Shown here: piece after piece, positions 40,617-54,618 of the stretch
Layout: each line of letters begins with the position of its first letter
How positions within the stretch are numbered: the stretch's first letter is position 1
Assembly: GCA_902789555.1 (NCBI GenBank)
Contig: CADAOF010000016.1
Coordinates: forward strand, 1 to 54,618
DNA from: an uncultured Lachnospiraceae bacterium
GTDB lineage: Bacteria; Bacillota; Clostridia; Lachnospirales; Lachnospiraceae
Direction of reading: 5' to 3'
DNA: 54,618 nt
Notes under the pieces: model-generated
Told to the model about the DNA's origin: nothing
The model's input: only the letters and a program-made list of their open reading frames with translations
Database searches by the model: none
Made by a program: the position numbers and the translations under genes

Positions 40617-41516
40617 TCAACCCTTGACGGCGCCGCCGGTGACGCCTTCGACATAATACTTCTGCAGGCACAGGAACAGGATCGTGACCGGTATGGCAAC
40701 GAGTACGCCGCCGGCGCAGAACATCGTATACTTGTACTGGACCTGGTCCGGTGTCAGCCAGCTCCATAAGCCTACGGCTACGTTCATGCCCTTCGAGGTA
40801 TTCATGGAGATATACCGGGCAAACACGAAATCGCCGAACGGGCCCATGAAGGCGGTCAGGATCGTATAGATGACGATGGGCTTGGCAAGCGGCAGGATGA
40901 TCTTGGTGAGCACCTGCGCGCGGGTGGCTCCGTCAATGCGGGCGGCTTCATCCAGGGATTTCGGCAGCGTGTCGAAGAAGCCCTTGGAGATGTAGTAGCC
41001 CATACCGGAGGAAGCGATGTAGACAAGAATGAGTCCGGGCACCGCGTTGGCCTGCGTGAGGCCCAGGTCTTTTAAGACGCGGTACAGGATGATCATGGTC
41101 AGCATCCCGGGGAAGAGTCCGAGGACCAGCATGAACTTCATCAGGGGCTTTCTCAGTTTGAAACGAAAGCGGGAAAGCGTGTAGCTCATGCACAGGACAA
41201 TGACGGTCTGCAGCACGGAAACGCAGAGAGCCGTGATCAGGGTGTTGCGGTACCAGATCGGGAAATCGGTCTGGAACAGGGCCTTGTAATTGTCCAGACC
41301 CCACTGCTGAGGAATGACGTAGCCCACGATGTAGGTGCTCTCGCAGCGGAAGCTCTGCAGCACGATGCACACGAACGGCGTAAGCCAGATGACCGTCATG
41401 ATGATCAGCAGAATGTAGATCAGGGTGTTGCCGATCGTACGGGAGGCTTTCAGACCGATGTGTTTTTTCAGTTCATTTTCCGGTGTTTTTTCGGAAAGCT
41501 TTTTCAAATCAGCCAT
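40617..41516 (-). CDS. Maltodextrin-type ABC permease (MalG-like)
   Basis: A 299-residue inner permease with six membrane helices and the EAA loop DEAARIDGATRAQVLTKIILPLAKP, which binds the ATPase. Its start touches the stop of the MalF-like gene (shared base at 41516), so translation is coupled. Confidence 0.92.
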   Translation of the reverse strand: MADLKKLSEKTPENELKKHIGLKASRTIGNTLIYILLIIMTVIWLTPFVCIVLQSFRCESTYIVGYVIPQQWGLDNYKALFQTDFPIWYRNTLITALCVSVLQTVIVLCMSYTLSRFRFKLRKPLMKFMLVLGLFPGMLTMIILYRVLKDLGLTQANAVPGLILVYIASSGMGYYISKGFFDTLPKSLDEAARIDGATRAQVLTKIILPLAKPIVIYTILTAFMGPFGDFVFARYISMNTSKGMNVAVGLWSWLTPDQVQYKYTMFCAGGVLVAIPVTILFLCLQKYYVEGVTGGAVKG

Positions 41517-43045
41517 TACTGGAAATCCTCCTCGTTCTTATTTGACGGCAGCAGGCCGTAGACGACGACCGTAATGAGGGCCATGACGACGAAGACCATG
41601 ATACCGATGACGGAAGCCTGATAGTACTTGGATTCCGCGCCGGTCGTCACCTTGAACAGCCAGGTGATCAGAAGGTCTGTCTGGCCGGGACTGCCGCCGG
41701 CCGCAGATGCCCAGGCTTTATCCGGCCCGCCTCCTGTCAGCAGGTAGATGACGTTGAAGTTGTTCATGTTGCCGGTAAAGCTCGTCAGCAGGTAGGGGCC
41801 GGTGACGAAGAGCATGTACGGCAGGGTGATGTGCGCGTACTGCTGGAAGCCGCTCGCGCCGTCGATCTTGGCCGATTCGTACAGGTCCGCCGGGATGTTC
41901 ATCAGGATACCGGTCGCGATCAGCATCAGGTACGGAATACCGATCCAGATGTTGACGATGATGACCGTGAATCTGGCCCAGGTCGGGTCTGTCCAGAACG
42001 GCAGCGGATCTTTGATCCACCCCAGATCCTTCAGGAAGCCGTTTACGATACCGTTCTGTGCGAACATCTTCGAAACGTACAGCAGGGAAATGAACTGCGG
42101 AATGGCGATGGTCAGCACCAGCACGGTACGCCAGAACTTCTTGATCTTGATGCCCTTCTTGTTGATCATCATGGCAACGAACATGCCCAGGAAATAGTTA
42201 GTGAACGTTGCGAAGAAGGCCCAGATGAGCGTCCAGGTGAGGATCTCGCCGAAGGCTGCGGTATAGACCTTGTTGCCGTCGGAGAAGGAGAGGAGCTGCT
42301 TGAAGTTCTCGAGGCCCACCCAGGTGAAGAGGTTATTTGAAAAACCGTTGTGCGCGCCGTCGTAGTTGGTGAAGGCGACCAGTATCATAAAGACGATCGG
42401 CATGACCGTGAAGATCAGGATGCCGGTCAGGGGCAGCGCCAGCAGCGTCTTGTGGAAGGAATCATCCACGAGGGAGCGAAGATCGTCCTTGCCGCTCTTA
42501 AGGGGCTTACCCGTGGCGAGGATCTTTTCCGCCGTCTGGTTTTGCTTGATATTCATGCGCCAGGTGTAGATAAACGCAATAATGAAGAAGATGGTCAGCA
42601 CGCCGTACAGAAGGATCTTGAACGAGTCGTCCCCGTACACCTTGGTATAGGCGTCCAGGATCTCGTCATATTCCTCGTGAGGGCCCACGGTGCCGAGCGT
42701 GGGGAGTTTACTCAGCCAGTTCACACCGGTCGTGACCATGTAGAAGATGAATACGGCTTCAAAAGCCAGGAAGAGGAGACCGCGCAGGATCTGCCCTCTT
42801 GCAATATTGCCGAAGCCCATGACGACGTAGGAGATCTTGGTCTTCCAGTCCCCGTGCACAAAGGTCATAGCAATATCTTTCAGTTCGCGGCCGATCCCCA
42901 GGAACAGATTCTTGAAGAAACGGCCGATGGCAATTCCGATCTTGGCAAACCAGCGGGGAATCGCCGCAAAGAAGCATCTCAGGTTGTACAGAAATTTCTG
43001 TCCCTTTGACAGCTTCAGATATTCCAGATCGCTGTATAGTTTCAT
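41516..43045 (-). CDS. Maltodextrin-type ABC permease (MalF-like)
   Basis: A 509-residue permease with seven to eight helices and an EAA loop YESAKIDGASGFQQYAHITLPYM. Longer than a MalG partner through an extra N-terminal part, as usual for MalF. AAGGTG precedes ATG 43045. Confidence 0.92.
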   Translation of the reverse strand: MKLYSDLEYLKLSKGQKFLYNLRCFFAAIPRWFAKIGIAIGRFFKNLFLGIGRELKDIAMTFVHGDWKTKISYVVMGFGNIARGQILRGLLFLAFEAVFIFYMVTTGVNWLSKLPTLGTVGPHEEYDEILDAYTKVYGDDSFKILLYGVLTIFFIIAFIYTWRMNIKQNQTAEKILATGKPLKSGKDDLRSLVDDSFHKTLLALPLTGILIFTVMPIVFMILVAFTNYDGAHNGFSNNLFTWVGLENFKQLLSFSDGNKVYTAAFGEILTWTLIWAFFATFTNYFLGMFVAMMINKKGIKIKKFWRTVLVLTIAIPQFISLLYVSKMFAQNGIVNGFLKDLGWIKDPLPFWTDPTWARFTVIIVNIWIGIPYLMLIATGILMNIPADLYESAKIDGASGFQQYAHITLPYMLFVTGPYLLTSFTGNMNNFNVIYLLTGGGPDKAWASAAGGSPGQTDLLITWLFKVTTGAESKYYQASVIGIMVFVVMALITVVVYGLLPSNKNEEDFQ

Positions 43046-43060
43046 ATGTTCGCACCTTGT

Positions 43061-43100
43061 TAAAAAGAATGAGGGCCGGAGATGTTGGTCTCCGGCCCTC
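43061..43100 (-). terminator. Partial terminator between binding protein and permease genes
   Basis: On the - strand an 11-bp stem GAGGGCCGGAG with an 8-base loop is followed by ATTCTTTTTA. Such intercistronic stems commonly make the binding protein mRNA more abundant than that of the membrane parts (known for malE-malF). Confidence 0.75.
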
Positions 43101-43147
43101 GGTACTTAAGCGAGCGGCTTAAATACCCGCAGCCTTAAGGCCGGGCA

Positions 43148-45007
43148 TTATTCCGCGGAAAGGGAAACTTCGGTAGTGGTCGGGTTGAACACAACGTAGA
43201 ACTTGCCGGCGGTCTCGACTTTGAAGTTGTCGGTGCCGTTGCCCCAGCTGTTGTCCCAGTTCTGGCCCTGACGTACCTTGAATTCAGCACCGGCTTCCAG
43301 ATCGAAAGCATCGACGCTCTTGTAGGTACCGTCAGCCTGCAGTTCCATGTCGAAGTCCTTATCCCAGTTGGCTCCGGCGATCGCGCCGATCACGGTCCAG
43401 CCGGTGGAAGGGCTGTTCTTTTCCAGAGAGATGACGCCTTCTGTCAGGCCGGCGTTCACGACGACCTTGATGAAATACCAGCCGTCTTCTTCAACGACCA
43501 CGTTCGGGCCGTTGACCTTATTATCAGCGCCGAAGTTGACGTCCCAGCTCTTGCCCATGCGGACCTTGAACTCGTCACCCTTCTTCAGTTCGATGGGTTC
43601 GGTGGTGTACCAGGTGCCTTCCGGCTTCTGGGTCATTTCGAAGTCGGTGTCCCAGTTGGTGCCGGCAATCGCGCCGATCACGGTCATGGCAGTGGCTTCG
43701 TCTTCGGGCATGTCGATGATGCCGGCAAGAGCTTCCTTGTAGATATCAAGGGCATCCTGCAGACCCTTTTCATCGGTAGCATTTTCAACGTTGGTAGCGA
43801 TCGCTTTCGCGATATCCCACCAGCCTCCGCTGATCTGACCCTGAGGCGTTCCATACTTCTTCTGCGCGTCAAAGGCGGTCAGAGCAGGGGAACTGGCCTT
43901 TTCACGGGCTGCCAGATTGGCCGGACCCCAGCCAAGCTGCTCGAAAAGTTTGGTTTCGCATTCTTCGTTGGTCAGGAACTGAGCCAGTCTGTGCAGCACG
44001 GCCTGCTTCACTGCATCGGTCTGCGGCTTTACGCCCAGCAGCTTGCAGCCGGTGTAGGAACCAAGGTGATAAGACTTGCCGTCCACAGTGAAGGAAGGCA
44101 GCTCGGCAGCGCCGAGGTTGTCGCCCAGGATATCCTTGATCGTGTTGTAATCCCAGGTACCGGTCACGACGATGGCCGAAGGAGTGGCAGCCGCGAAATC
44201 GGCGCCGGAGGAGCTGTTGTTGTAGGCCTTGGAGCTGACGAAGGCCTTCAGACCCTTGGCAGCGATGAGGCCGTTTGCGGAATTCCAGTTGTCGCGGCAG
44301 GCAATGGCTTTGCCGTTGTCATCATATTCCCATTCGGAAGAGCAGCCGGTGGCAAAGAAGAAGGATGCCACATACCAACCGTTCTTAACATCGAAGGAGA
44401 AGTACTTGCCGGCCTTCTCGCAGTCTTCAAGCAGCTTTTCCATGGAGCCGAGGTCGGCTTCCGGGATGACGCTCTTGTCATAGTACATGAAGAAGCCGTT
44501 GTCGGAGGTCAGCGGGTAGGCATAGAGCTCGTCACCGCTCTTGACAGCGATGACGGAGGTTTCTTCATTGTTCTCAAGGACATTGGCAGCAGCAGCCTTG
44601 CCGAGCTTGGCCAGGGCGCCGGCTTCGATCAGACGTGCAGTCTGGTCCTGCGCAAAGAAGAACAGGTCGCCGCCGGCTTCCACGTCAGTGATCATGGAAG
44701 TGGCCGCATCACCTTCACCAACGGCTTCGACGGTCGCGTTGATCACGATGCCGTCTGTGTTGGACTTGTTGAAGCTATCGATCTGTTCTTTGGTCCACGA
44801 TACGGCGTTTTCAGGGCACCACACCTTGATGTCATAGGTGCCGGCCAGCTGGGAACCGGAACTCGTGGAGCCCTGCGGAGCCGCAGTGCTGCCCTGAGGG
44901 GCGGCGGAGCTGCCGGTCGTCGGGTCCTTCTGGCCGCCGCAGGCGCCGAGACTCAGCACCATAACGAGGGTCAGAAGCAGGGAAATCAATTTGAGTGATT
45001 TCTTCAT
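43148..45007 (-). CDS. Extracellular solute-binding protein with two tandem starch-binding-like repeats
   Basis: A 619-residue lipoprotein: lipobox (LGAC, Cys near 23), a Gly/Ser/Thr/Gln-rich linker, and a cluster 1 solute-binding fold (MalE type, about 55-430) typical for maltodextrins. The last 180 residues are unusual: two repeats of about 90 residues (starting near 440 and 532; both begin TVIGAIAG, then NWDxDF/W...GDEFKVRxGxxWD), resembling the SusE/SusF starch-binding repeats of Bacteroidetes and similar add-on domains in Firmicute amylases. The DNA of the two repeat starts is almost identical, suggesting recent duplication. AGGAGG precedes ATG 45007. Confidence 0.9.
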   Translation of the reverse strand: MKKSLKLISLLLTLVMVLSLGACGGQKDPTTGSSAAPQGSTAAPQGSTSSGSQLAGTYDIKVWCPENAVSWTKEQIDSFNKSNTDGIVINATVEAVGEGDAATSMITDVEAGGDLFFFAQDQTARLIEAGALAKLGKAAAANVLENNEETSVIAVKSGDELYAYPLTSDNGFFMYYDKSVIPEADLGSMEKLLEDCEKAGKYFSFDVKNGWYVASFFFATGCSSEWEYDDNGKAIACRDNWNSANGLIAAKGLKAFVSSKAYNNSSSGADFAAATPSAIVVTGTWDYNTIKDILGDNLGAAELPSFTVDGKSYHLGSYTGCKLLGVKPQTDAVKQAVLHRLAQFLTNEECETKLFEQLGWGPANLAAREKASSPALTAFDAQKKYGTPQGQISGGWWDIAKAIATNVENATDEKGLQDALDIYKEALAGIIDMPEDEATAMTVIGAIAGTNWDTDFEMTQKPEGTWYTTEPIELKKGDEFKVRMGKSWDVNFGADNKVNGPNVVVEEDGWYFIKVVVNAGLTEGVISLEKNSPSTGWTVIGAIAGANWDKDFDMELQADGTYKSVDAFDLEAGAEFKVRQGQNWDNSWGNGTDNFKVETAGKFYVVFNPTTTEVSLSAE

Positions 45008-45030
45008 AATTTTTCCTCCTCATAATAATC

Positions 45031-45058
45031 GCCGGGACATAAAAAAACTGATCCCGGA
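45031..45058 (-). promoter_or_regulatory. Leader inverted repeat of the maltodextrin operon
   Basis: CCGGGA and TCCCGG (on the - strand, about 45058-45033) flank 14 AT-rich bases between the promoter and the first gene. It could be an operator or a leader stem. Confidence 0.4.
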
Positions 45059-45099
45059 GATATTCACTTTTTCAGGCTTTTCGCCTATGTGATGGCTAT

Positions 45100-45128
45100 A
45101 TTTTACTTCAGTGCGGCTGTGAAATCAA
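45100..45128 (-). promoter_or_regulatory. Promoter of the maltodextrin operon
   Basis: On the - strand TTGATT (45128-45123) and TAAAAT (45105-45100), 17 bases apart, give a leader of about 90 bases. Confidence 0.7.
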
Positions 45129-45352
45129 GATTATTTTATATTTTTTTTCGAATTTGAGCTTTCCGCAGCTGTCTTTTCCGGCTTCTATGCCGTTTTTATG
45201 CTCTTTCGGCGGAAGTGCTGAAAAAAGAAACTGCATTGGTTATGATGGGAAACGGCAGGAGGGCGAAGCCCCTGCCGGACATAAATAATGCGACAGGAGA
45301 CAGACATATGGCATAACGATATTTTTGAAAAAGCGTCTCGATTTGGGGAAGG
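45129..45352. other. Intergenic stretch at the island boundary
   Basis: No gene seen. It holds AT-rich sequence upstream of the maltodextrin promoter, a stem CGGCAGG/CCTGCCG near 45252-45278, and a possible three-codon ORF (ATG at 45308). Base composition shifts to AT-rich around here, marking the start of the accessory island. Confidence 0.5.
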
Positions 45353-45381
45353 TTGATGAAACTATTTGGAAGTGGTATGCT
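45353..45381 (+). promoter_or_regulatory. Promoter of the DUF2075 gene
   Basis: TTGATG (45353-45358) and TATGCT (45376-45381) with 17-base spacer; moderate fit. ATG 45442 is the first good start behind it. Confidence 0.5.
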
Positions 45382-45441
45382 CTATAAGGGAAGATGCCAT
45401 GCTTCTTTATGTTGATGCGAGGCATGCGTTTGGGTGAAGAT

Positions 45442-47301
45442 ATGATTGTTTACAGCGCAACGAAAGCACAGTTCAATGATGACGTGAATCTGAACAAAAT
45501 TTCGGATATTATTCTTCAGAATCTACGCGAAAAGAATGTTTCCGGCGGACAACTGGCAGAATACAATTCCTGGCAGAACTCGCTGCATTTCATGCGTGCA
45601 GCAATCGATGATCCGGAGATTCCCGGGGACGTTGAGGTTGCGGTAGAATACCAGATTCCGAGAACTTCAAAGCGTGTCGATTTCATGATTGCCGGGGCGG
45701 ATAAGGACAGCCGCAGCAATGTTGTCGTGGTCGAACTGAAGCAATGGGAAAAAGCAGAAAAAGTCGATGACCTGATGCAGCACAGTGTTCGTGCTTTTAC
45801 CGGCGGCGCAAAGAGAATCGTCAATCATCCGTCTTATCAGGCGTATGCTTATGCGACATTCATAAAGAACTCTTCAGAACAGGTGCAGGACGAGAGAATA
45901 GGCATCTGGCCTTGTGCATATCTGCATAATTGCTCGCCAACTTACCGAACTCCGCTCGACGATGTGATCTACAAAACCTGGCTTGAAGAGGCACCTCTTT
46001 TTGACAAGAGCCAGACGCTTAAACTGCGGAGTTTTATCAAGCAATTTATAACCAAACGCTCTTCGTCGGGAAAGCTTCTGTACAAGATCGATAACGGACG
46101 GATCCGTCCTTCAAAAGCACTTCAGGACTACTTGGTTTCACTTATGAAAGGAAATGAAGAATTCCTTCTTCTGGATGATCAGGCAGTGGTTTTTGATATG
46201 TGCAAGAAGATCATGGACCAGTGCCTGAAGGACCTTAAGAAAAGGACGATCATTATCCAGGGCGGCCCCGGCACGGGCAAATCCGTTCTTGCCGTCAATC
46301 TGCTGAAAGAGTTTATTACCAAGGGATTAAATGCCAGTTATTGCACGAAAAACAGTGCGCCGCGAGAGGCATATCAGCGCTTGCTGGCAAAATCCGATCT
46401 TAAGGCGCAAGTCAATATCAAACAGCTCTTCAGGTCACCGTTTGGACTCAGTAATGCTGCTCCGAACTTTTTCGATTGTCTGATCATTGATGAAACGCAT
46501 CGGCTTGTGGCAAAAATGTACGGCGATTGGAACGGAGAGAATCAGGTCAAGGAATGCCTGAATTCATCATTGTTTACGGTGTTCCTTCTGGATGAAAATC
46601 AGCAGATCACAACGAAGGATATCGGTTCCGTTGCTGAGATAAAGAAGTGGGCTTCTGCTCTCGGCAGCCAGGTGATCATGAATGATGATACCGTGCTGCG
46701 GTCACAGTTCCGATGCAACGGCAGTGACCAGTACATACAATTCCTGAACAATATTTTGCAGATCGGCGAACCGGTCGATATTGACAAGGGCGAGATGCGT
46801 TTTGACATGAGGGTCTTTGATGATCCGAATGAATTTAGGGATGCTTTGCGTGAGATCAATAAGATAAACAATAAGGCAAGAATGGTTGCCGGATATTGCT
46901 ATGACTGGAATGTAAAAAACGATCGCGGAGATTATGACATCTATCTGGAAAACGGATTCAAGGCTCAGTGGAATCTTGCAACAGATAAGGTGTGGGCGAT
47001 CAATCCAAAATCGTTTGAACAGGTCGGCTGCATCCATACTGCACAGGGACTGGAATTTGATTATGTCGGTGTGATAATCGGTCAGGATCTGCGCTACGAC
47101 CCTATTGCCGGAACAATAGTGACAGACCGTTCGAAGATTTCGAAGGATGATAATTCATCCGGCATTCGTACGGCGCGAGATGACATCGCAGAACGGCTGA
47201 TAAAAAACACTTATAAAACGTTGTTGACGAGAGGCCAAAAAGGATGCTTCGTGTATTGTGAAGACAAGGCATTGGCCGAGCATATTCGCTCATTTCTTTA
47301 A
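45442..47301 (+). CDS. PD-(D/E)XK nuclease-like domain fused to DUF2075 (Schlafen-like) helicase
   Basis: Start chosen at ATG 45442 (MIVYSATKAQF). The 619-residue protein begins with a PD-(D/E)XK nuclease-like core: D80 in RVDFMI and E98-L-K100 in VVVELKQW. Residues about 250-610 are a DUF2075/SF1-type helicase: Walker A G274GPGTGKS281, Walker B LIIDETHR (D350-E351), motif III-like FLLDENQQ, and a C-terminal TAQGLEFDYVGV. Proteins of this kind are common in defence islands; a DNA- or RNA-degrading nuclease-helicase is inferred. Its neighbour at 47319 is a MazG-like NTP pyrophosphatase, a frequent partner. Confidence 0.88.
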   Translation: MIVYSATKAQFNDDVNLNKISDIILQNLREKNVSGGQLAEYNSWQNSLHFMRAAIDDPEIPGDVEVAVEYQIPRTSKRVDFMIAGADKDSRSNVVVVELKQWEKAEKVDDLMQHSVRAFTGGAKRIVNHPSYQAYAYATFIKNSSEQVQDERIGIWPCAYLHNCSPTYRTPLDDVIYKTWLEEAPLFDKSQTLKLRSFIKQFITKRSSSGKLLYKIDNGRIRPSKALQDYLVSLMKGNEEFLLLDDQAVVFDMCKKIMDQCLKDLKKRTIIIQGGPGTGKSVLAVNLLKEFITKGLNASYCTKNSAPREAYQRLLAKSDLKAQVNIKQLFRSPFGLSNAAPNFFDCLIIDETHRLVAKMYGDWNGENQVKECLNSSLFTVFLLDENQQITTKDIGSVAEIKKWASALGSQVIMNDDTVLRSQFRCNGSDQYIQFLNNILQIGEPVDIDKGEMRFDMRVFDDPNEFRDALREINKINNKARMVAGYCYDWNVKNDRGDYDIYLENGFKAQWNLATDKVWAINPKSFEQVGCIHTAQGLEFDYVGVIIGQDLRYDPIAGTIVTDRSKISKDDNSSGIRTARDDIAERLIKNTYKTLLTRGQKGCFVYCEDKALAEHIRSFL

Positions 47302-47318
47302 GAATGAGAGGAGAGAAA

Positions 47319-47642
47319 ATGAATCAGGAAACTATTGATAGAATAAGACGCTTTACCGAAGACCGGGACTGGGATCAGTTCCATTCTCCTGCGAATCTGG
47401 CCAAGTCCATTTCCATAGAAGCGAACGAATTGTTGGAGTGTTTTCAGTGGAGTGACACGAATTATGATCTGGAACATGTGAAGGAAGAACTGGCTGATGT
47501 ATTGGTATACTGCCGGGATATGCTGGATAAACTTGGCTTGGACGAAGACGAAATCGTCAATGCAAAAATGGATAAGAACGAAGCGAAATATCCGGTAGAG
47601 AAAGCTAAGGGAAAAGCGGATAAGTACGACAGTTTTTCTTAG
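47319..47642 (+). CDS. MazG-like nucleotide pyrophosphohydrolase
   Basis: A 107-residue all-alpha MazG-like (RS21-C6/dCTPase type) enzyme that would hydrolyse NTP or dNTP to monophosphate and PPi. The metal-binding pattern is SIEANELLECFQW and KEELADVLVYCRD. Start ATG 47319 has GGAGAG upstream; an earlier ATG at 47304 is less likely. It is 17 bases behind the DUF2075 helicase gene and almost certainly in the same operon. Possible roles: nucleotide depletion during infection or house cleaning. Confidence 0.88.
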   Translation: MNQETIDRIRRFTEDRDWDQFHSPANLAKSISIEANELLECFQWSDTNYDLEHVKEELADVLVYCRDMLDKLGLDEDEIVNAKMDKNEAKYPVEKAKGKADKYDSFS

Positions 47643-47747
47643 TGACAGCAATGGTAGAATAAAAAAGATTCATATAAACGAAAAACAAAAAGAACTAATC
47701 GAGAATCGTATAATTGTGTCAACTGCGAGTATTGAATAAGGTGAAGG

Positions 47748-47813
47748 ATGATAATAAAAGCGTTGGGGGTTGTTGATGGTGCGAGATTACCAGGCGAGAA
47801 AATATATTTTTGA
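47748..47813 (+). CDS. Tiny ORF (21 aa) before the C-H-D protein
   Basis: ATG 47748 with AAGGTGAAGG directly upstream encodes MIIKALGVVDGARLPGEKIY + F and ends at 47813, overlapping the start of the following gene in another frame. It may be a leader peptide or only chance. The ribosome binding site is better than that of the main gene. Confidence 0.3.
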   Translation: MIIKALGVVDGARLPGEKIYF

Positions 47814-48399
47814 ACAAACTTTTCGATACAATGATTCTCGTCTTACAAATGTACTAATTAAAGCGTTTGACATTATGTTCAACAATAAAGAACCAGATGG
47901 ATGCTTTTCTACTAGCGTTGCGCTTCACGTTATTTTGAGTTCTTTTGGGTACGCGCCAAAGATTTGTTATGGAAAGATTATAACATCGGAAAAACATCAG
48001 CATTATCATGCGTGGCTTGAACTCGATGGAAAGGTTTTGGATTTGGCGGTATATGGCAATTCTCACTTTAGTCCTTTTTGGCATGATAAACCATTAGGTC
48101 CTGTTGTGTTCGAAAACTATGTTGATACTCCGGTTTGTTACAAAAAACAGTACTTTGATAATGATTGGACTGATTGCAATATATACCAAGCTATTAAAAT
48201 GGGGTCAATTGCAGAGTACATCTCACAAGCACCTTCTGTAAACCATCCATCAAGGAATGGGATGTGGGCACTTATTTTTTCTATTTTGGATGAAACCTAC
48301 ACGAGTACAAGACGTAAAGAACTTGAGCATTACGCTTGTCAAGAATCATTCATTTTGGATAGTTCTGAAATAGATAATCAATGTAAAGGTGCCTTATGA
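47776..48399 (+). CDS. Transglutaminase-like (Cys-His-Asp) protein
   Basis: A 207-residue cytoplasmic protein with a transglutaminase-like/lasso-peptide-B2-like core: C43 in DGCFSTSVAL, H78 in HYHAWLELDG and D89 in VLDLAVYG are spaced as a catalytic triad. Lasso-type leader peptidases and papain-fold transferases share this pattern. A precursor peptide or RRE/cyclase gene was not found nearby, so the role is open. The gene is AT-rich compared with its neighbours. Start ATG 47776 has only a GGGGG-type site; TTG 47770 is an alternative. Confidence 0.6.
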   Translation: MVRDYQARKYIFEQTFRYNDSRLTNVLIKAFDIMFNNKEPDGCFSTSVALHVILSSFGYAPKICYGKIITSEKHQHYHAWLELDGKVLDLAVYGNSHFSPFWHDKPLGPVVFENYVDTPVCYKKQYFDNDWTDCNIYQAIKMGSIAEYISQAPSVNHPSRNGMWALIFSILDETYTSTRRKELEHYACQESFILDSSEIDNQCKGAL

Positions 48400-48449
48400 T
48401 TTGCTCGATAATCATTTGACCAAGTATATTCGGGATTACAATCGATTTT

Positions 48450-48484
48450 CAATTTGATCATTTATGGCGCAAATGATTAAATTG
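48450..48484. repeat. 14-bp inverted repeat, possible operator
   Basis: CAATTTGATCATTT (48450-48463) and AAATGATTAAATTG (48471-48484) match at 13 of 14 positions around a 7-base spacer; a further half-site ATGATCAAATT follows near 48492-48502. It lies just before the NERD gene and looks like a repressor site or a pairing region. Confidence 0.6.
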
Positions 48485-48533
48485 AAGCGTATGATGATCA
48501 AATTAAAAATGATGACAGGAGTGATGTTTAGAG

Positions 48534-49814
48534 ATGGATATGGAGACCATTTACGGGAATCTGACATCGGTAGACATTAAGGAACAGCAGAGACTCTGGG
48601 ATGAGAGAGGAAAAGGTTATTACGGAGAATACCTTCTCCTGACAGAACTCTATCAGCATATTAAGGGGCAGTGCAAGATTCTGATGAATCTGAACGTTCC
48701 GACCGCTGCAGGAAAGACGACCGAGATCGATTTACTCATGATCCATGAGACCGGTCTGTATGTTTTTGAGGCGAAGTATTACAAGGGAACGATTTACGGA
48801 AAGTACCAGGATGCGAAATGGACACAGTACTTCCGTACGCAGGAGAACAGCCATTTCAACAGCCCGATCAAGCAGAATGAGTACCATATCGAAGCACTGA
48901 AAAGGCTGTTCCCCGGAACACCGGTATACTCATTTATCGTGTTTACCAACAACGATACAGACATAAAAGTGACCGGTTGGGAGAACACGGGAATCGTAGT
49001 CTGCAAGCTGAATGAGATCCGGCAATATATCGACAAGATCAATATGAAAACGGATACACGTCTTTCTGTGGAGCAGATTGACGAGACGTTCAAGTCTCTC
49101 AGTATTTACGCTCCGATCAGAAAAGACGAGGTTTCTGAAGAGGTCCGCGTCATACCGCTTACGGAATACATTGAGCAAATGAAGTCCGACTATGCGACGG
49201 GGCTGGAAGCAGTACGAAAAGAGGAAAAGAAACGGTTCAGCAAGAAGGTCGTCGGAATACTCGGTGCTGCATTGATTGTCAGTGCCGTTGTAATCGGGGC
49301 CGCTTCGATAATCGTAATGGGAGCGAAAAAGAAAGCATCTGAAGCCGAAAAGGCACAGCAAAGCGCCGAACAGGCAATGGAGGAGTTTGCCAAAAAGTTC
49401 AAGCAGGTCGATCCCATGAACGGGGGAGATGTGGAACTGGAAGACAACTTCCTGGAAGTCATAGACAGCAAGTTGGAGAAATCGGAGGATTTGAAGGATA
49501 CATTTTTGTTTTCCGGCAAGCTGCAGGTGAACAGTAAAAAATATAGCCTTCGTTTGACGAAAGATACGACTATTATTGTTCAAATGAAAGACGGTACGAT
49601 TGCGGAGTATAATTTCGGTACAATTGCGGGAATATACAGTAATCATTGGGTATCTTTTGGCAGACCGGACGAATTCCCGGAGATCCAGATATTTACGGAT
49701 TCGGTTGACAATATTGATTATATCAAACTGAGCAAAGTAAGTGTATGTGATGAACGAAACCTGCATGCGGATTATATCCCCTGCATTGAATTTGAACTGT
49801 ACAACGCAGAATAA
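48534..49814 (+). CDS. NERD nuclease-related domain membrane protein
   Basis: A 426-residue protein with an N-terminal NERD domain (PD-(D/E)XK-like; D66 in TEIDLLMI, E79 and K81 in VFEAKYYKG), one membrane helix (about 238-263, VVGILGAALIVSAVVIG), a short coiled coil (about 265-290) and a C-terminal beta-rich domain without a known name. NERD proteins are frequent in defence and plasmid islands. Start ATG 48534; ATG 48540 is an alternative; AGGAG is 12 bases upstream. Confidence 0.82.
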   Translation: MDMETIYGNLTSVDIKEQQRLWDERGKGYYGEYLLLTELYQHIKGQCKILMNLNVPTAAGKTTEIDLLMIHETGLYVFEAKYYKGTIYGKYQDAKWTQYFRTQENSHFNSPIKQNEYHIEALKRLFPGTPVYSFIVFTNNDTDIKVTGWENTGIVVCKLNEIRQYIDKINMKTDTRLSVEQIDETFKSLSIYAPIRKDEVSEEVRVIPLTEYIEQMKSDYATGLEAVRKEEKKRFSKKVVGILGAALIVSAVVIGAASIIVMGAKKKASEAEKAQQSAEQAMEEFAKKFKQVDPMNGGDVELEDNFLEVIDSKLEKSEDLKDTFLFSGKLQVNSKKYSLRLTKDTTIIVQMKDGTIAEYNFGTIAGIYSNHWVSFGRPDEFPEIQIFTDSVDNIDYIKLSKVSVCDERNLHADYIPCIEFELYNAE

Positions 49815-49846
49815 TCAAAACTAAAAAACGTGAAACACTAATTACT

Positions 49847-50950
49847 ATGAACCTTCCTGCTGATTCAAAACTGAATATCTCGGGATTATCTCGCCTGTTT
49901 GACAACAAGTCGGAGTGCTACAAACTCTTCTGGTTTCAGGCGATCTTGACCTATGTCTGTAACGGACGGCGGGAGATCTGTTATGAAGACCTGATCGATG
50001 AGATGATTGCAGATGCCTGGTATATGGTCACGGAGTATCATCTGAATCTCGGTCCGAATGACACCCTGGAGAAGGCAGTTAATTACATTTCGTCTGTTGC
50101 GGGAATGCTTCCTTCGACGAAAAAACAGGATATCCTGGACTGGCTGAAATCGTGCTCGGATCAAACTGTTCTTTGGTATAAACGGATACTTAGTCTGAAT
50201 GTTCCGTACCGCCTTCAGGCTCCGCTGATGAATGGTTTCAAAGGCGACGATTGGAAATGTGGGACGAAGAATCTCGCGGAAAAGATTAATCAACAGGAAA
50301 GACTGATCTACTATTTCATTTGGGACTCCGGACTGAAAAGTCAGATTCGGATAGATGATGCCTGGGCAGCGTATCTGCGCGACAATCAAGAGATCCTCAG
50401 AGGATGGATCCAGTATAATATGATCATCTATCTGCAACGGCGCAATCCCAGTGTGCCGGGTATTTCCGACAAACTGTATCCGCCGCAGGAACGTAAGTTG
50501 GAGAAGGTCAAGAAGTACTGGAAACTGCTTACGGGTATTGAAGAGATCCATGAAATCTACGGAGCAGGTCTGTTGCTTCCGGATGATATTTCCATCGATC
50601 ATTTTGTTCCTTGGTCTTATGTCGCACATGATGAATTCTGGAATCTTCACCCCACCACGCGTTCAATAAATAGCAGTAAGAGTAATAATCTTCCGGACTG
50701 GGATCTTTATTTCCCGCGGTTTGCTGCGCTGGAATTTGAATCTTATAAGATGATCTGGACATACGACAAAGTCCACGATGAATTCGAAAAATGTGCCCGG
50801 GAACATCTGAATAATTCGGAAATCAAACAACATCTTTATCGAGAAGGTCTGTCGGCGACGGAGTTCAAAAACCAACTGGAAAGCGTCGTTTATCCGGTCT
50901 GGCAGTCAGCAAAGACCTGCGGGTTCAAGAACTGGGAATACACGTTATGA
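49847..50950 (+). CDS. HNH endonuclease domain protein
   Basis: A 367-residue protein with a long helical N-terminal region (1-240) of unknown fold and a C-terminal HNH/ENDO VII-type nuclease: IDHFVPWS (D251-H252), WNLHPT (N266) and N275/N280 in INSSKSNNLPDW. The arrangement is a typical Cys-free HNH core. Its TGA overlaps the ATG of the methyltransferase by 4 bases. Nuclease plus methyltransferase in one unit suggests a restriction-like or nucleic-acid modification pair, but the methyltransferase has no DNA-target motif. Confidence 0.85.
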   Translation: MNLPADSKLNISGLSRLFDNKSECYKLFWFQAILTYVCNGRREICYEDLIDEMIADAWYMVTEYHLNLGPNDTLEKAVNYISSVAGMLPSTKKQDILDWLKSCSDQTVLWYKRILSLNVPYRLQAPLMNGFKGDDWKCGTKNLAEKINQQERLIYYFIWDSGLKSQIRIDDAWAAYLRDNQEILRGWIQYNMIIYLQRRNPSVPGISDKLYPPQERKLEKVKKYWKLLTGIEEIHEIYGAGLLLPDDISIDHFVPWSYVAHDEFWNLHPTTRSINSSKSNNLPDWDLYFPRFAALEFESYKMIWTYDKVHDEFEKCAREHLNNSEIKQHLYREGLSATEFKNQLESVVYPVWQSAKTCGFKNWEYTL

Positions 50951-51540
50951 CGTACGATACGATTGCATATTATAACGAAAATGCTGTAGCCTTTGTTGAA
51001 GGGACGCTGGATGCAGATATGAGTTATGTTAGAGACCTGTTTCTCCGATACGTCAAGGCAGGAGGACGGATCCTGGATGCCGGCTGCGGGAGCGGCCGGG
51101 ACTCGCTGGCCTTTATGGATGCCGGATACGAGGTTGATGCTTTTGATGCTTCTGAAGAGATCTGCCGCCTTGCTTCGGAGCGGCTGGGCTTCCAGGTGGC
51201 CTGCAAACGCTTTGAGGATCTGGACGGGGAAGAAGAGTACGACGGGATTTGGTGCTGCGCTTCGCTGCTTCACGTCCAGGCAGATGATTTGCTGGATGTG
51301 ATGAACCGGCTGAGAAAGCTCCTGAAACCGGAAGGCGTGATCTATATTTCATTCAAGAAAGGCGACATTGAGAGAGTAAAAAACGGCCGGTTCTTCCATG
51401 ATATGACCGCTGAGGCGTGCGAAAAGCTGCTGTTGGATAATGGATTTGAGATACTGGAACTGTTTGAAAGCGGTGACGTCCGGACCGACAGAGCAGAAGA
51501 AAAATGGGTAAATGCAATAGGGCGAAAAGAGTTGCCATGA
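50947..51540 (+). CDS. Class I SAM-dependent methyltransferase (TehB/UbiG-like)
   Basis: A 197-residue Rossmann methyltransferase. Motif I is ILDAGCGSGRDS (about 42-53), the acidic end of strand 2 is VDAFDAS, and IWCCASLLHVQADDL is motif IV/V. The small size and missing DPPY-type motif point to a small-molecule or protein target rather than DNA. It overlaps the HNH gene by 4 bases. Confidence 0.85.
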   Translation: MTYDTIAYYNENAVAFVEGTLDADMSYVRDLFLRYVKAGGRILDAGCGSGRDSLAFMDAGYEVDAFDASEEICRLASERLGFQVACKRFEDLDGEEEYDGIWCCASLLHVQADDLLDVMNRLRKLLKPEGVIYISFKKGDIERVKNGRFFHDMTAEACEKLLLDNGFEILELFESGDVRTDRAEEKWVNAIGRKELP

Positions 51541-51583
51541 GGAATAGTGTGGATTTAGATTAATGTGAGAAAGGACAATCGTT

Positions 51584-52309
51584 ATGCCATCAAAACCCTC
51601 TTCCCTTACATTTTATAAAATAATTGCACTTGTCTTAACCGGTCTAGCTGTTATTATGTTGTTCTTACCCTGGATGACGGTTTCTGCTTCGATTCTGGGC
51701 AGTACTTTTCATAGAGGCGGCAACATTTTTGATATGGTTGGTGTGGACGACCTTTGGTCAGTTGCGATGCTTTTTTCGACTATCATAGCTATTGCAACTA
51801 TTATTCTTGCTGTCATTGGTATCTTTAAAGACCGCAAGTTTTATGTTCTTCCATTGGCAGCAATGGGGATTATTATGTTTTTACTTGTAGGTTTCCGGTT
51901 GTTACAGACAAAATCTTCAATGGATTTGGATAATAATATATTCGTTGGCTTTGTGAGCATCAATATTGGAGTAGGTGCTTGGCTGTTTCTGGCTTTTAGT
52001 CTTGGTGCTTTGGGTGTTTTATGTTTCGAGGATTATAAAAAAGGTCACAAAGTTTTTGATTTCTCCAACCATCAAAATGTTTCATTTGCCGAACAGAACG
52101 AGAGGAATCTTGGCGGTTGGACTTGCCCCGTCTGCGGAGCTGAGTGTGCTAGGAATCAACTCATATGTATCGCTTGCGGAGCCACAAAACCGGAACCGAT
52201 TATTTGTCCTAAATGCAGAGCAAGGAACACTGAGGACGCCGTATTTTGCACAAATTGCGGTCAACGGATACCGGAAGAGTTCGACTATGACGAACATCAA
52301 CCCTTTTGA
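51584..52309 (+). CDS. Four-helix membrane protein with C-terminal zinc ribbons
   Basis: A 241-residue protein with four membrane helices (about 10-30, 60-85, 88-108, 130-152) and two to three zinc-ribbon units in the last 80 residues (CPVCGAEC, LICIACGA, CPKCRA, VFCTNCGQ). The ribbons should lie in the cytoplasm. AT-rich and weakly supported by its ribosome binding site. It ends 27 bases before the nucleotide-cyclase-like gene, so the two may work together. Function unknown. Confidence 0.7.
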   Translation: MPSKPSSLTFYKIIALVLTGLAVIMLFLPWMTVSASILGSTFHRGGNIFDMVGVDDLWSVAMLFSTIIAIATIILAVIGIFKDRKFYVLPLAAMGIIMFLLVGFRLLQTKSSMDLDNNIFVGFVSINIGVGAWLFLAFSLGALGVLCFEDYKKGHKVFDFSNHQNVSFAEQNERNLGGWTCPVCGAECARNQLICIACGATKPEPIICPKCRARNTEDAVFCTNCGQRIPEEFDYDEHQPF

Positions 52310-52336
52310 ATGCTATAACAAAGACTGAGTGGTGCT

Positions 52337-53185
52337 ATGGAATACGAAAAACGAATAGTGTGCTATTTGGACATATTAGGCTTTAAGAATATGATCTATG
52401 AAAGCGCCAAGAATGGTCATATTAGAGAAAGAATTTTTAAACTCCTGGAAGATGTAAAGGGCATTCATCAGAACTTTCAAGTGAGCCGTGAATATACGGT
52501 TGTTCCTGAGAAAGAATTTGTAGATGGCTTTACCCCGAAAAACGTATTCGACTCAGGGCTGCAATCTGAAATGTCATTCTTTTCTGATAGTATAATCTTT
52601 TCTTATAAAATGACTCAGAAAAGAAAAGACTTAATGGATATTCATATTGTATTGCATGAAATTAGCTTTTTTGCTTTTCAATTACTGGCAATGGGCTTTT
52701 TTGCACGAGGGGGAATGGTGTTTGGAGACGTTTATCATAAAGATAATGTCTGTTTCGGCCCGGCACTCGTAAAAGCTGTTTTATTAGAGGAAAAGGCTGT
52801 GCATCCCAGAATATCCATTGATCCTTTGTTTTTCAATCCCGAATCTCCGGATTCAGTGTATTATGGAAGGAAGAACATATTTAAACATAACCGGGATTTT
52901 ATTGAGGACACTTATCATTGTGTGGATATTTTCGAAGGGCAACAAAGCAGTAATGATATTTACAGCATCCGTTTGGATAAGAACCTGGTCCACTATTTAG
53001 ATATTTTAGATATCAATATTGATCGCAATATGGCGAGAGCATTGCATATTAAATCAGTTATTGAAAAAGAATTGAAAAAAGATTATCCACCGCATATTGC
53101 AGAAAAATATCAGTGGATGAAAGATTACTATAACTCGATTGTTTGGAATGTTCAGTGCATGGACGGGGGTAAAATAGAAATCTAA
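52337..53185 (+). CDS. Divergent class III nucleotide-cyclase-like protein
   Basis: A 282-residue soluble protein. Its layout matches class III adenylate/guanylate cyclases: D12 in CYLDILGF (metal Asp 1), D84 in FFSDSIIF (metal Asp 2), R124-G-G-M-V-F-G-D (the RxGIHxG-like turn) and FGPALVKAVLLEE where classical cyclases have VNxAxRLE. The Asn and Arg of the usual transition-state pair are replaced by Lys and Leu, so it could make an unusual cyclic nucleotide, bind NTP only or be inactive. Cyclases of this fold drive Pycsar defence, but no cyclic-nucleotide-binding partner is recognised. The gene is markedly AT-rich. Confidence 0.6.
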   Translation: MEYEKRIVCYLDILGFKNMIYESAKNGHIRERIFKLLEDVKGIHQNFQVSREYTVVPEKEFVDGFTPKNVFDSGLQSEMSFFSDSIIFSYKMTQKRKDLMDIHIVLHEISFFAFQLLAMGFFARGGMVFGDVYHKDNVCFGPALVKAVLLEEKAVHPRISIDPLFFNPESPDSVYYGRKNIFKHNRDFIEDTYHCVDIFEGQQSSNDIYSIRLDKNLVHYLDILDINIDRNMARALHIKSVIEKELKKDYPPHIAEKYQWMKDYYNSIVWNVQCMDGGKIEI

Positions 53186-53242
53186 TAATTATCAAATGCA
53201 TCGAACCGCACTGGATCATTATGGGTGAAGTGCAGTCTGTGT

Positions 53243-53248
53243 TATAAT
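53243..53248 (+). promoter_or_regulatory. Promoter -10 box of the alcohol dehydrogenase
   Basis: TATAAT at 53243-53248 precedes AGGGAGG and ATG 53279; no good -35 box is seen at 17-18 bases. Confidence 0.45.
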
Positions 53249-53278
53249 TGATCTGAGAAACTGCAGGGAGGTATTGTT

Positions 53279-54478
53279 ATGCAGAAATTCACGTACTATG
53301 CGCCGACGGAGATCGTGTTCGGTCCCGCGGCGGAAGACCGTACGGCGGAACTCGTTAAGAAATACGGCGGAAGCCGCGTGCTGCTTATCTACGGCGGCAA
53401 GTCTGCCGAAAAGAGCGGCCTCTTGGGCCGTGTGAAGGAGAACCTCAAGGCGGCCGGGATCGAGGTCCTTGCCATGGGCGGCGTCGTGCCGAACCCGTTA
53501 GTTTCGACGGCAGTGAAAATGGCTGAAGAAGGAAAGCGTTTCGGCGCCGATTTCGTACTGGCGGTCGGCGGCGGGAGCGTCATCGATACCGCGAAGGCCG
53601 TGGCACATGCCATTGCCGCGCCGGAGCATGAGATCTGGGATTTCTGGACCGGAACGAAGGTGCAGGCGAGCCTCCCGAAGGGGGCCATCCTGACCATTTC
53701 CGCGGCCGGAAGCGAGACCAGCAATTCCTCCGTGCTGACGAACGATCTGCTGGATGCGCCCACGAAGCGCGGGATCAATACGGATTTCAACCGCTGCAAG
53801 TTTGCGATCATGAATCCGGAATTGACCATGACGCTGCCGCTGTATCAGATCGGCGCAGGTGCGGCCGATATCTTCATGCACACCTCCGAGCGCTATTTCG
53901 CGGCGATCCTGGGCAATCACCTGACCGACGAGATCGCGGAAGGCCTGTTCCGCGACATCATCAAATACGGACCGCGCGGCGTGGCCGATCCGAAGGATTA
54001 CGAGGCCATGAGTGAGATCATGTGGTGCGGCAGCGTGTCGCACGTGGGGCTCACCGGCATCGGGGCGCAGGGCGATACGCCGCGGGAAGGCGACTGGGCC
54101 TGCCATCAGCTGGGCATGGCCATTTCAGCGCTGTACGATTCGACGCACGGTGCGACGCTGACGGCTGTCTGGGCGGCCTGGAGCCGCTATGTGAAGGAGG
54201 CGAACGTCGCCCGCTTCGCGCAGTTTGCCCGGAAGGTCTACGGCGTGACGGAGGCCGACGATGAGAAGGCCGCGGAAGAAGGGATCCTTCGGACGAATGC
54301 GTTCTTCCGGAGCCTCGGCATGCCGCTCAGCCTTACGGAGCTGCTGGGACACGAACCCACGGACGAAGAGATCGAGAAGATCGCTTGGGAGTGCACCTTC
54401 GGCCGCAAGCGGACCATCGGGGCCTTCAAGGTCCTCGGCTACGACGACATCGTGGCCATTTACAAGGCCTGCCGCTGA
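53279..54478 (+). CDS. Iron-containing alcohol dehydrogenase (butanol dehydrogenase type)
   Basis: A 399-residue cytoplasmic NAD(P)-dependent alcohol dehydrogenase of the iron-containing family (BdhA/YqhD type). The nucleotide-binding motif is AVGGGSVIDTAKAVAH; metal-binding Asp/His lie in AGAADIFMHTSE and DSTHGATLTAVW. It would reduce aldehydes to alcohols in fermentation. GGGAGG precedes ATG 53279. Its higher GC and codon use again resemble the core chromosome, so the accessory island ends near 53.2 kb. Confidence 0.92.
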   Translation: MQKFTYYAPTEIVFGPAAEDRTAELVKKYGGSRVLLIYGGKSAEKSGLLGRVKENLKAAGIEVLAMGGVVPNPLVSTAVKMAEEGKRFGADFVLAVGGGSVIDTAKAVAHAIAAPEHEIWDFWTGTKVQASLPKGAILTISAAGSETSNSSVLTNDLLDAPTKRGINTDFNRCKFAIMNPELTMTLPLYQIGAGAADIFMHTSERYFAAILGNHLTDEIAEGLFRDIIKYGPRGVADPKDYEAMSEIMWCGSVSHVGLTGIGAQGDTPREGDWACHQLGMAISALYDSTHGATLTAVWAAWSRYVKEANVARFAQFARKVYGVTEADDEKAAEEGILRTNAFFRSLGMPLSLTELLGHEPTDEEIEKIAWECTFGRKRTIGAFKVLGYDDIVAIYKACR

Positions 54479-54526
54479 GAACCCGCCGGCACTGCCGGAA
54501 TATGAAAAACAGGCTGCTTAGATATG

Positions 54527-54560
54527 TACCCTCTTTACTGGACAACCAGTAAGGAGGGTA
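54527..54560 (+). promoter_or_regulatory. Hairpin sequestering the transposase ribosome binding site
   Basis: TACCCTCTTTACTGG (54527-54541) and CCAGTAAGGAGGGTA (54546-54560) pair at 14 of 15 positions plus one G-T pair around a 4-base loop. The 3' arm contains the AAGGAGG of the next ORF, so transcripts reading in from outside would hide it. This is a known way for insertion sequences to avoid activation by neighbouring promoters. Confidence 0.7.
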
Positions 54561-54567
54561 TATTCTT

Positions 54568-54618
54568 ATGCGTTACAGTTATGAGTACAAGCGGAAATGC
54601 GTTGAGCTGTACAGGGAA
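54568..54618 (+). mobile_element. Insertion sequence, first 17 codons of a transposase (partial)
   Basis: ATG 54568 opens MRYSYEYKRKCVELYRE, which resembles the helix-turn-helix start of IS3-type (OrfA) and related transposases. The gene runs off the right window edge. The left end of the element should lie between 54479 and 54527; no terminal repeat can be verified here. Confidence 0.7.

Follow-up and report, generated by a model that had tools for sequence, protein, structure and literature searches.

Nhi-like nuclease-helicases, like the type IV restriction enzymes that resemble SauUSI, are usually regarded as weapons that work alone, and Nhi itself has been described as a single-gene system. 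Here we examine a window of 54,618 nucleotides (contig CADAOF010000016.1, positions 1 to 54,618; contig 16 of the 2.26-Mb draft genome GCA_902789555.1 of an uncultured Lachnospiraceae bacterium) that contains a block of eight genes, A to H. At the head of this block, a predicted nuclease-helicase of the same general type (A) is followed after 2 bp by a small nucleoside triphosphate (NTP) pyrophosphatase (B). The A-B pair recurs in distant bacteria and in archaea, and its two members very probably act as one functional unit. The parts of the arrangement are already known: Nhi-like helicases, dCTPP1-like enzymes, HNH proteins, and the PADLOC candidates PDC-S41 and PDC-S07. In the open-licence literature, exclusive of bioRxiv, no paper was found that describes a linkage of Schlafen-group-3 (SLFN-g3) or DUF3427 helicases to these pyrophosphatases; the portion of PMC7159879 available to us mentions DUF3427/SauUSI and NUDIX proteins without linking the two.

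Protein A (45442..47301, + strand) combines a PD-(D/E)XK nuclease (approximately residues 1–240) with a SLFN-g3 (DUF2075) helicase of superfamily 1 type (residues 267–608) and is predicted to be a DNA-destroying effector. The helicase is recognized by Pfam (SLFN-g3_helicase, formerly DUF2075, PF09848; 300 bits). In the N-terminal region the PD-(D/E)XK residue set is present and nucleases were found as structural neighbors, while a Foldseek search with a model of the N-terminus gave no match at E ≤ 0.001. Both the nuclease and the helicase motifs are invariant in 14 aligned rows; these rows were retrieved by the helicase domain, because one of the search patterns used in the wider scan described below contains the nuclease E-x-K itself. 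In PADLOC, A matches AbiO (5.8e-17) and Nhi (8.7e-15), in both cases over residues 220–473, which is the helicase part and does not cover the N-terminal domain. It also has a partial match to PDC-S41 (1.6e-16).

Protein B (47304..47642, + strand) was labeled MazG-like in the original prediction, in agreement with Pfam (MazG-like, PF12643; 60.6 bits). This label can be refined: judged by its sequence, B is a member of the dCTPP1/RS21-C6 branch of these all-alpha NTP pyrophosphatases. Deoxycytidine triphosphate (dCTP) pyrophosphatase 1 is the best named enzyme by PDB profile (6e-27), the catalytic residues E39, E42, E62 and D65 are invariant in 23 rows, and B has the same residue as DCTPP1 at seven of the eight pocket positions listed in PMC4491611. 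DCTPP1 prefers dCTP and 5-methyl-dCTP and, in human cells, its level shifted 5-methyl-dCTP and not dCTP, as stated in the part of that paper available to us (PMC4491611). B is accordingly a predicted enzyme of the dCTP, or modified-dCTP, pool.

The association of the two genes was quantified in 150 genomes of the family, one per genus, which were searched with the SLFN-g3 family, B and the HNH gene E. A full helicase was defined as a match of at least 95 bits, which gave 36 helicases in 34 genomes; weaker matches, mostly short matches to other helicases, were dropped. B had 44 matches in 43 genomes. A copy of B lies within 1.5 kb of 24 of the 36 full helicases, compared with 0.05 expected from random placement in 3 Mb, and fewer than 110 bp separate the two matches in 21 of these 24 adjacent pairs. 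At the level of genomes, B is present in 31/34 helicase carriers and in 12/116 others (odds ratio 90, p 5e-19), where kinship among the genomes makes the odds ratio the useful part and leaves the p-value overstated. Control odds ratios for co-occurrence with B were 2.4 for E, 2.5 for DUF3427 and 1.0 for zinc-ribbon matches. When the 24 genomes with adjacent pairs are removed, B is still found in 7/10 helicase genomes against 12/116 others. Two of the three helicase genomes that have no B are 60% and 84% complete, and the third (G094) carries a NUDIX-methyltransferase fusion in the operon.

A wider scan, using two short peptide patterns and one genome per species, returned at least 586 relatives of A, and the best 80 were examined. 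Several of these 80 named loci come from metagenome bins, and the names of such bins can be mistaken. At 46 of the best 80 loci no more than 300 bp separate B from A, with both on the same strand in 45; in five more the distance is 0.5 to 4.5 kb. One locus (L198) has no intact A, and in another (L212, almost certainly the same contig as G002:C60 and so not independent) the pyrophosphatase forms part of an F::B fusion and was left uncounted. The pairs occur in Bacillota, Bacteroidota, one Saccharibacteria bin and one Zetaproteobacteria bin, and in both gene orders, with B upstream of A 31 times and downstream 15 times. The mean distance between A proteins is 0.49 and 0.46 within the two orders and 0.49 between them, and the distances among A proteins partly track those among B proteins (Mantel r 0.36, a value reached in 0 of 2000 permutations). 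The occurrence of both orders together with this partial correlation indicates repeated exchange or reassembly of the pair and so argues for selection on the link.

Relatives of A are present in 39 of 72,556 plasmid records and 4 of 50,697 phage records, with two more from viral contigs. At six of the eight plasmid, phage and viral-contig loci inspected B stands directly upstream; these six include the haloarchaeon Halalkalicoccus jeotgali B3, Priestia aryabhattai and a Microcystis phage. In a Marivirga plasmid A is in pieces. The gene order on the P. aryabhattai plasmid (L360) is MutT, DUF3578, nucleotide pyrophosphohydrolase, DUF2075, and type I methylase and specificity genes.

A second gene pair of the block is repeatedly found with the first. 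Gene E (49847..50950, + strand) encodes an HNH nuclease (HNH_4, 35.4 bits) with a long N-terminal part of unknown fold. Its D251-H252, N266, N275 and K278 are invariant in 17 rows, and its best solved matches are the HNH domains of Cas9 (E about 1e-4). Gene F (50947..51540, + strand), which overlaps E by 4 bp, encodes a small class I methyltransferase (Methyltransf_25, 57.3 bits; alignment of 10) that is the partner of E and is fused to NUDIX or to B in relatives. E was counted as 38 reading frames above 90 bits at 37 loci, L301 contributing two pieces of one gene and L303 a short fragment. For 18 of the 38 frames, F is no more than 1.5 kb away, and in 17 of these 18 it overlaps E, the overlap depending on the choice of start. 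The 5 kb around the 38 E frames hold SLFN-g3 helicases in 8 cases, superfamily 2 (SF2) helicases in 8, NUDIX genes in 11, PRA-PH-like genes in 4 and B in 8; the last is a corrected count, since the frame caller gave 7 and missed the B of the window, 2.2 kb from E. We use "PRA-PH-like" as a name for a small gene (about 105 codons), perhaps a third type of pyrophosphatase, which overlaps or adjoins E in L124 (7521-7838), L150 (5970-6287) and L123 (5437-5751); its product, scanned in L124 and L150, had no Pfam, NCBIfam or PADLOC match at E ≤ 0.001.

The two pairs are joined in a series of operons. The order A-B-F-E occurs in L125 and L126, A-B-E-F in L210, SF2-NUDIX-E-F::B-A in L036, and SF2-NUDIX-A-B-E in L187, whose A is the closest among the best 80 (83%). 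In L122 and L123, a GIY-YIG helicase takes the place of A (helicase-B-E-F and helicase-B-E, respectively); the GIY-YIG label is a reading of the N-terminus, where PADLOC gives weak PDC-S14 matches. The order in the window, A-B-(C-D)-E-F, belongs to the same operon set, with two genes between the pairs.

Several of these A-B/E-F operons also hold a PLD-SF2-DUF3427 helicase, which matches the PADLOC type IV methyl-directed restriction model (1e-107 and 1e-203). Its resemblance to SauUSI has led to the prediction that DUF3427 binds modified DNA (PMC7159879, available part). DUF3427 was found in 42/150 family genomes, and a NUDIX gene lies on the same strand within the 1.5-kb flank at 27 of the best 30 loci of these 42 genomes. 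The genome of the window has a weak DUF3427 match on another contig and none in the block. Fusions exist in all three pairings, namely NUDIX::F in two genomes, F::B in one and NUDIX::B in one, and fusions of such a kind usually mark proteins of one pathway. The fused genes lie at L128 10073-11086, L293 3342-4355, L036 11840-12781 and L041 9098-9835. The SLFN-g3 relative of 713 residues in L128 is PDC-S41 in PADLOC (4e-241), and the NUDIX partner is PDC-S07 (6e-48).

From these observations we infer the following mechanism, including the phage target, the trigger of A, the substrate of B, the parts played by E and F, and which benefit matters. A would degrade invading, probably replicating, DNA, perhaps at replication intermediates, a site of action that has been proposed for Nhi (PMC10732053, available part). 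B would hydrolyze dCTP and, more probably, 5-modified dCTP, and would in this way keep out of DNA those cytosine nucleotides, modified or not, that a phage supplies or that destruction and salvage release. Two benefits that do not exclude each other could follow: the host genome may be spared phage-derived modified bases, and the phage may be denied building blocks. Within pool clearing, we place self-protection somewhat ahead of phage starvation. E and F would be a second, overlapping pair repeatedly recruited to the same operons. The presence of B in genomes that carry the helicase elsewhere (7/10) fits a pool-wide duty, and the link of NUDIX genes to helicases modeled as modification-directed fits the host-protection benefit. 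We assign this reading as a whole, with A destroying invading DNA, B clearing the (modified) dCTP pool and E-F as a second recruited pair, a probability of roughly 0.45. Its parts differ in strength: A-B is likely to be antiviral, and action of B on the dCTP pool, modified or not, is somewhat more likely than not.

Several observations weigh against this reading. The theme of the nucleotide pool derives from homology: among solved structures, B is closest to a protein whose name says no more than "pyrophosphatase" (1e-29), and His38 of the DCTPP1 pocket is not kept. The partner NUDIX proteins resemble MutT no less than they resemble NudG, which acts on 5-methyl-dCTP, and pass no NCBIfam cut-off; they could be 8-oxo-dGTP enzymes. 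The linkage has gaps as well. In the wide scan, 29 of the 80 A loci, among them all three from spirochaetes and one from a Methanobrevibacter bin, have no B in the stretch examined; only a few of the 29 are at contig ends. Some of the 43 family genomes counted as having B have weak matches (34–40% identity). A phylum test centered on B gave 22 matches of at least 60 bits, of which 20 loci were fetched (the window and one locus at a contig start being left out) and 17 evaluated, since B was not called by the frame caller in L276, L277 and L281; an SLFN-g3 helicase stands beside B or one gene away in 6/17 and is not so placed in 11/17. In the family sample, 20 B matches lie away from SLFN-g3; 19 of these loci were fetched together (L127 separately), B was called in 12/19, and type I restriction or pAgo-like genes are next to B or one gene away in 4 of the 12 evaluated. 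B is therefore not exclusive to A, as it also stands beside type I restriction or pAgo-like genes and beside unrelated genes. Finally, E was found in only 3/299 genomes of the phylum sample, that of the window included. We had considered E as a wide-ranging hub and reject this on the same count; E is largely a family-level gene, unlike A-B.

Two side observations concern the surroundings of B. A dCTPP1-like gene also adjoins genes for type I restriction, or is close to them, in L342 (3154-6620), L345 (4895-8763) and L350 (5006-9490). A protein of about 330 residues, which begins like LFYFTASN, adjoins the MazG-like gene in two unrelated loci (L270 4125-5099, L272 5693-6700), and in one of them it stands between the MazG-like gene and an A-like helicase.

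Four other explanations were weighed against the destruction of invading DNA by A with pool clearing by B. B could itself be an effector, draining dCTP once infection starts in the manner of dCTP deaminase and dNTPase defenses, with A as an independent second arm. Defense enzymes that hydrolyze deoxynucleoside triphosphates (dNTPs) exist, such as Clover (PMC12265719, part available), and B matches dCTP pyrophosphatase 1. Yet no sensing domain is visible in B, a small protein whose presence goes with that of the helicase in a genome and is not independent of it, and the human-cell result given above, in which DCTPP1 levels shifted 5-methyl-dCTP and not dCTP (PMC4491611, part available), does not favor a drain on dCTP itself; we regard this explanation as unlikely, though it is the nearest of the four. 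The obligate-looking partnership, and the fusion or swapping with other NTP pyrophosphatases, would also be expected if B altered nucleotide levels so as to switch the ATP-driven nuclease-helicase on or off, a regulator and not a pool guard. Nucleotide control of this kind has been described for Gabija. Since relatives of B favor dCTP over ribonucleotides (PMC4491611, part available), control through ATP is unlikely, and we consider the regulatory role improbable.

The linkage could also be mere hitchhiking, MazG-like, NUDIX and HNH genes being common in defense islands and coming to lie beside A without a functional link. This would account for the B relatives beside unrelated genes (11/17) and beside type I restriction genes, but it does not explain why the co-occurrence is specific, with an odds ratio of 90 against 2.4 and 2.5 for other island genes, or why A and B are close, co-directional, rebuilt in both orders and present in distant lineages; it is very unlikely. 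E-F, for its part, could be a small restriction-modification pair in which F methylates DNA and E cuts unmethylated DNA, as the overlap of the HNH and methyltransferase genes in 17 of the 18 cases with F nearby would suggest. Against this, no DNA-methylase motif IV could be seen for F in 10 aligned rows, no Pfam DNA-methylase family passes its cut-off (N6_N4_Mtase 14.9 bits against 26.7) and the PADLOC MTase_II match is weak (E 0.03). Moreover, F (197 residues) has no obvious recognition domain and is fused to nucleotide pyrophosphatases in relatives, and 20 of the 38 E frames have no F nearby. Such a pair is very unlikely.

If the reading of A as destroyer and B as pool guard is extended to its relatives, a general design could be proposed, which we offer tentatively. 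A DNA-destroying machine, which may be a Schlafen-group-3, a SauUSI-like type IV or a type I enzyme, would be coupled to a guard of the cytosine-nucleotide pool. Proteins of unrelated folds could serve as the guard (dCTPP1-like, NUDIX and perhaps a third, small type), in some cases fused to a small methyltransferase whose substrates would be nucleotides and not DNA. By keeping modified cytosine nucleotides, whether supplied by the phage or recycled from its DNA, out of the host genome, the guard would let a modification-sensitive nuclease be carried safely, and it would strip phages of protective bases. The linkage suggests that, in some immune systems, the shredding of foreign DNA goes together with control over how much of the DNA building blocks is available. 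If a dedicated pool enzyme does accompany such nucleases, the avoidance of self-damage by the nuclease and the response of the host to phages with modified cytosines both become testable with a two-gene operon, and the MazG-like and NUDIX genes beside restriction genes, now annotated only as house-cleaning, would gain a role.

The block as a whole is a less uniform object. The eight genes, all on the + strand, were confirmed at the coordinates first proposed for them, their family names agree with Pfam at curated cut-offs, and defense-system prediction matched the combination as a whole to no PADLOC-DB model, as had been suspected. The A+T richness noticed by eye was borne out by measurement: G+C is 0.430 in 45394-53185 against 0.567 in the rest of the window, and the values of 189 windows, each 7.8 kb long and located left of the block, span 0.539 to 0.597. 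Composition is also uneven within the block, as had been claimed, with G+C of 0.46, 0.43, 0.45, 0.46 and 0.51 in A, B, D, E and F against 0.36, 0.41 and 0.35 in C, G and H, the most A+T-rich genes. C is bounded by gaps of 127 and 134 bp. In relatives, A-B and E-F are linked and, in several cases, joined to each other; C, G and H are not carried along. On these two grounds, co-carriage and composition, we reject a single eight-gene system. The original prediction of one or more candidate defense systems thus stands in so far as the block is an acquired, composite accessory block, and falls in so far as the eight genes would be one system. The best reading is a composite defense island of core modules plus passengers. 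A mobile element with an attachment site was also considered and is not supported: the window has no tRNA, exact repeats shared by the two edges (45008-45450 and 53151-53300) reach no more than 10 bp, and Pfam finds no integrase or transposase among the eight genes. Rfam gave no match at the gathering score in 41000-54618, and scans for promoters (26 promoter-like sites against 17.1 ± 4.1 in shuffled sequence) and terminators (6 terminator-like sites against 6.8) were uninformative.

The block lies between a gene that reads as a sugar ABC transporter binding protein (43148..45007, − strand; permease genes follow), with relatives in L032, L034 and L035, and an iron-containing alcohol dehydrogenase (53279..54478, + strand; Fe-ADH, 139.5 bits in Pfam). 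In a search of 16 genomes of the same genus, the dehydrogenase is kept in G010 (99% identical) and G005 (94%), where the neighboring DNA on the window side holds A+T-rich type I restriction genes. PADLOC identifies MTase_I, Specificity_I and REase_I in both G010 (L033 1899-8638; 5e-180, 4e-79 and 4e-179) and G005 (L034 3893-12430; 2e-182, 3e-57 and 6e-158). The two restriction systems beside the dehydrogenase differ from each other, and the place looks like a defense hotspot. A relative of the left-flank gene lies beyond the restriction genes, about 26 kb (G010) and about 13 kb (G005) from the dehydrogenase; as it is only 52% identical, the left border is equivalent by arrangement and not proven. 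In G010, part of the space between the flank relatives is host-like in composition. In G001, a relative of D (70%) directly adjoins a relative of the left-flank gene (85%). We take this as a variable site for defense genes. The alternative form of the pair, a GIY-YIG-type helicase with a 77% relative of B, is found in G007, of the same genus, at a different site (L043 6800-8942), with an apparent groEL gene about 0.9 kb upstream.

The remaining genes of the block look like additions to the core modules. D (48534..49814, + strand), a NERD-domain protein (NERD, 88.5 bits) with a 70.5% relative in L035 of G001, is perhaps a resident of the site. C, G and H look like passengers. C (47770..48399, + strand) is a transglutaminase-like protein (Transglut_core3, 30.5 bits, cut-off 26) with weak likeness to lasso peptide B2 proteins and one weak relative in 149 other family genomes. 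G (51584..52309, + strand) is a membrane protein with a C-terminal double zinc ribbon (38.3 and 34.2 bits), and its matches in the family align almost only to the zinc-ribbon end. H (52337..53185, + strand) has no Pfam, NCBIfam or PADLOC family. The earlier description of H as cyclase-like agrees with Foldseek, in which 48 of the 50 listed rows are class III nucleotide cyclases and the other two GGDEF proteins, with a best E of 5e-4 from a model of mean pLDDT 53.9. D12 and D84 of H are invariant in four rows, and relatives were found in 3 of 150 family genomes (L163, L164, L165). On the evidence of this low-confidence model, H resembles the class III nucleotide cyclases, of which it would be a divergent member, and is worth a study of its own. 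Next to the H relative in L163 is a gene that we read as encoding a RES-domain protein.

Comparison with described systems sets the locus apart from some and relates it to others. MADS is not indicated, as D scores 33.7 bits against the MAD6 equivalog (cut-off 460) and the match of F to mad2 is confined to the C-terminal region (284-424 of 492); nor is BREX, where D scores 23.2 bits against the PglW equivalog (cut-off 990) and the NERD part is all they have in common. For a Pycsar-like G-H pair, neither protein has a PADLOC match at E ≤ 0.1, and the three H relatives have no G-like gene in the short stretches examined. PDC-S41 and PDC-S07 are listed apart in PADLOC output, as single-gene candidates and not as one operon. 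Like Nhi and AbiO, A carries a Schlafen-group-3/DUF2075 helicase, here in a single chain with an N-terminus that looks nuclease-like but lies outside the PADLOC matches to the two systems. It differs in coming with a dCTPP1-like partner, linked at 24 of 36 and 46 of 80 loci and not at the others, and often with HNH and methyltransferase genes. The SauUSI-kind type IV enzymes of the relatives similarly bring a nuclease-helicase (PLD-SF2-DUF3427) together with an NTP pyrophosphatase (NUDIX), but with another helicase superfamily and another nuclease, and they are absent from the block of the window. Defenses by nucleotide depletion (dCTP deaminase, dGTPase, Clover; for Clover PMC12265719, available part) share the nucleotide pool as battleground; they use another enzyme fold, whereas B is tied to a DNA nuclease-helicase. 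With DCTPP1/RS21-C6, B shares the fold family, the catalytic residues and all but one of the eight pocket residues. DCTPP1, however, is known as a house-cleaning enzyme of animals, whereas B is tied to a predicted defense nuclease-helicase.

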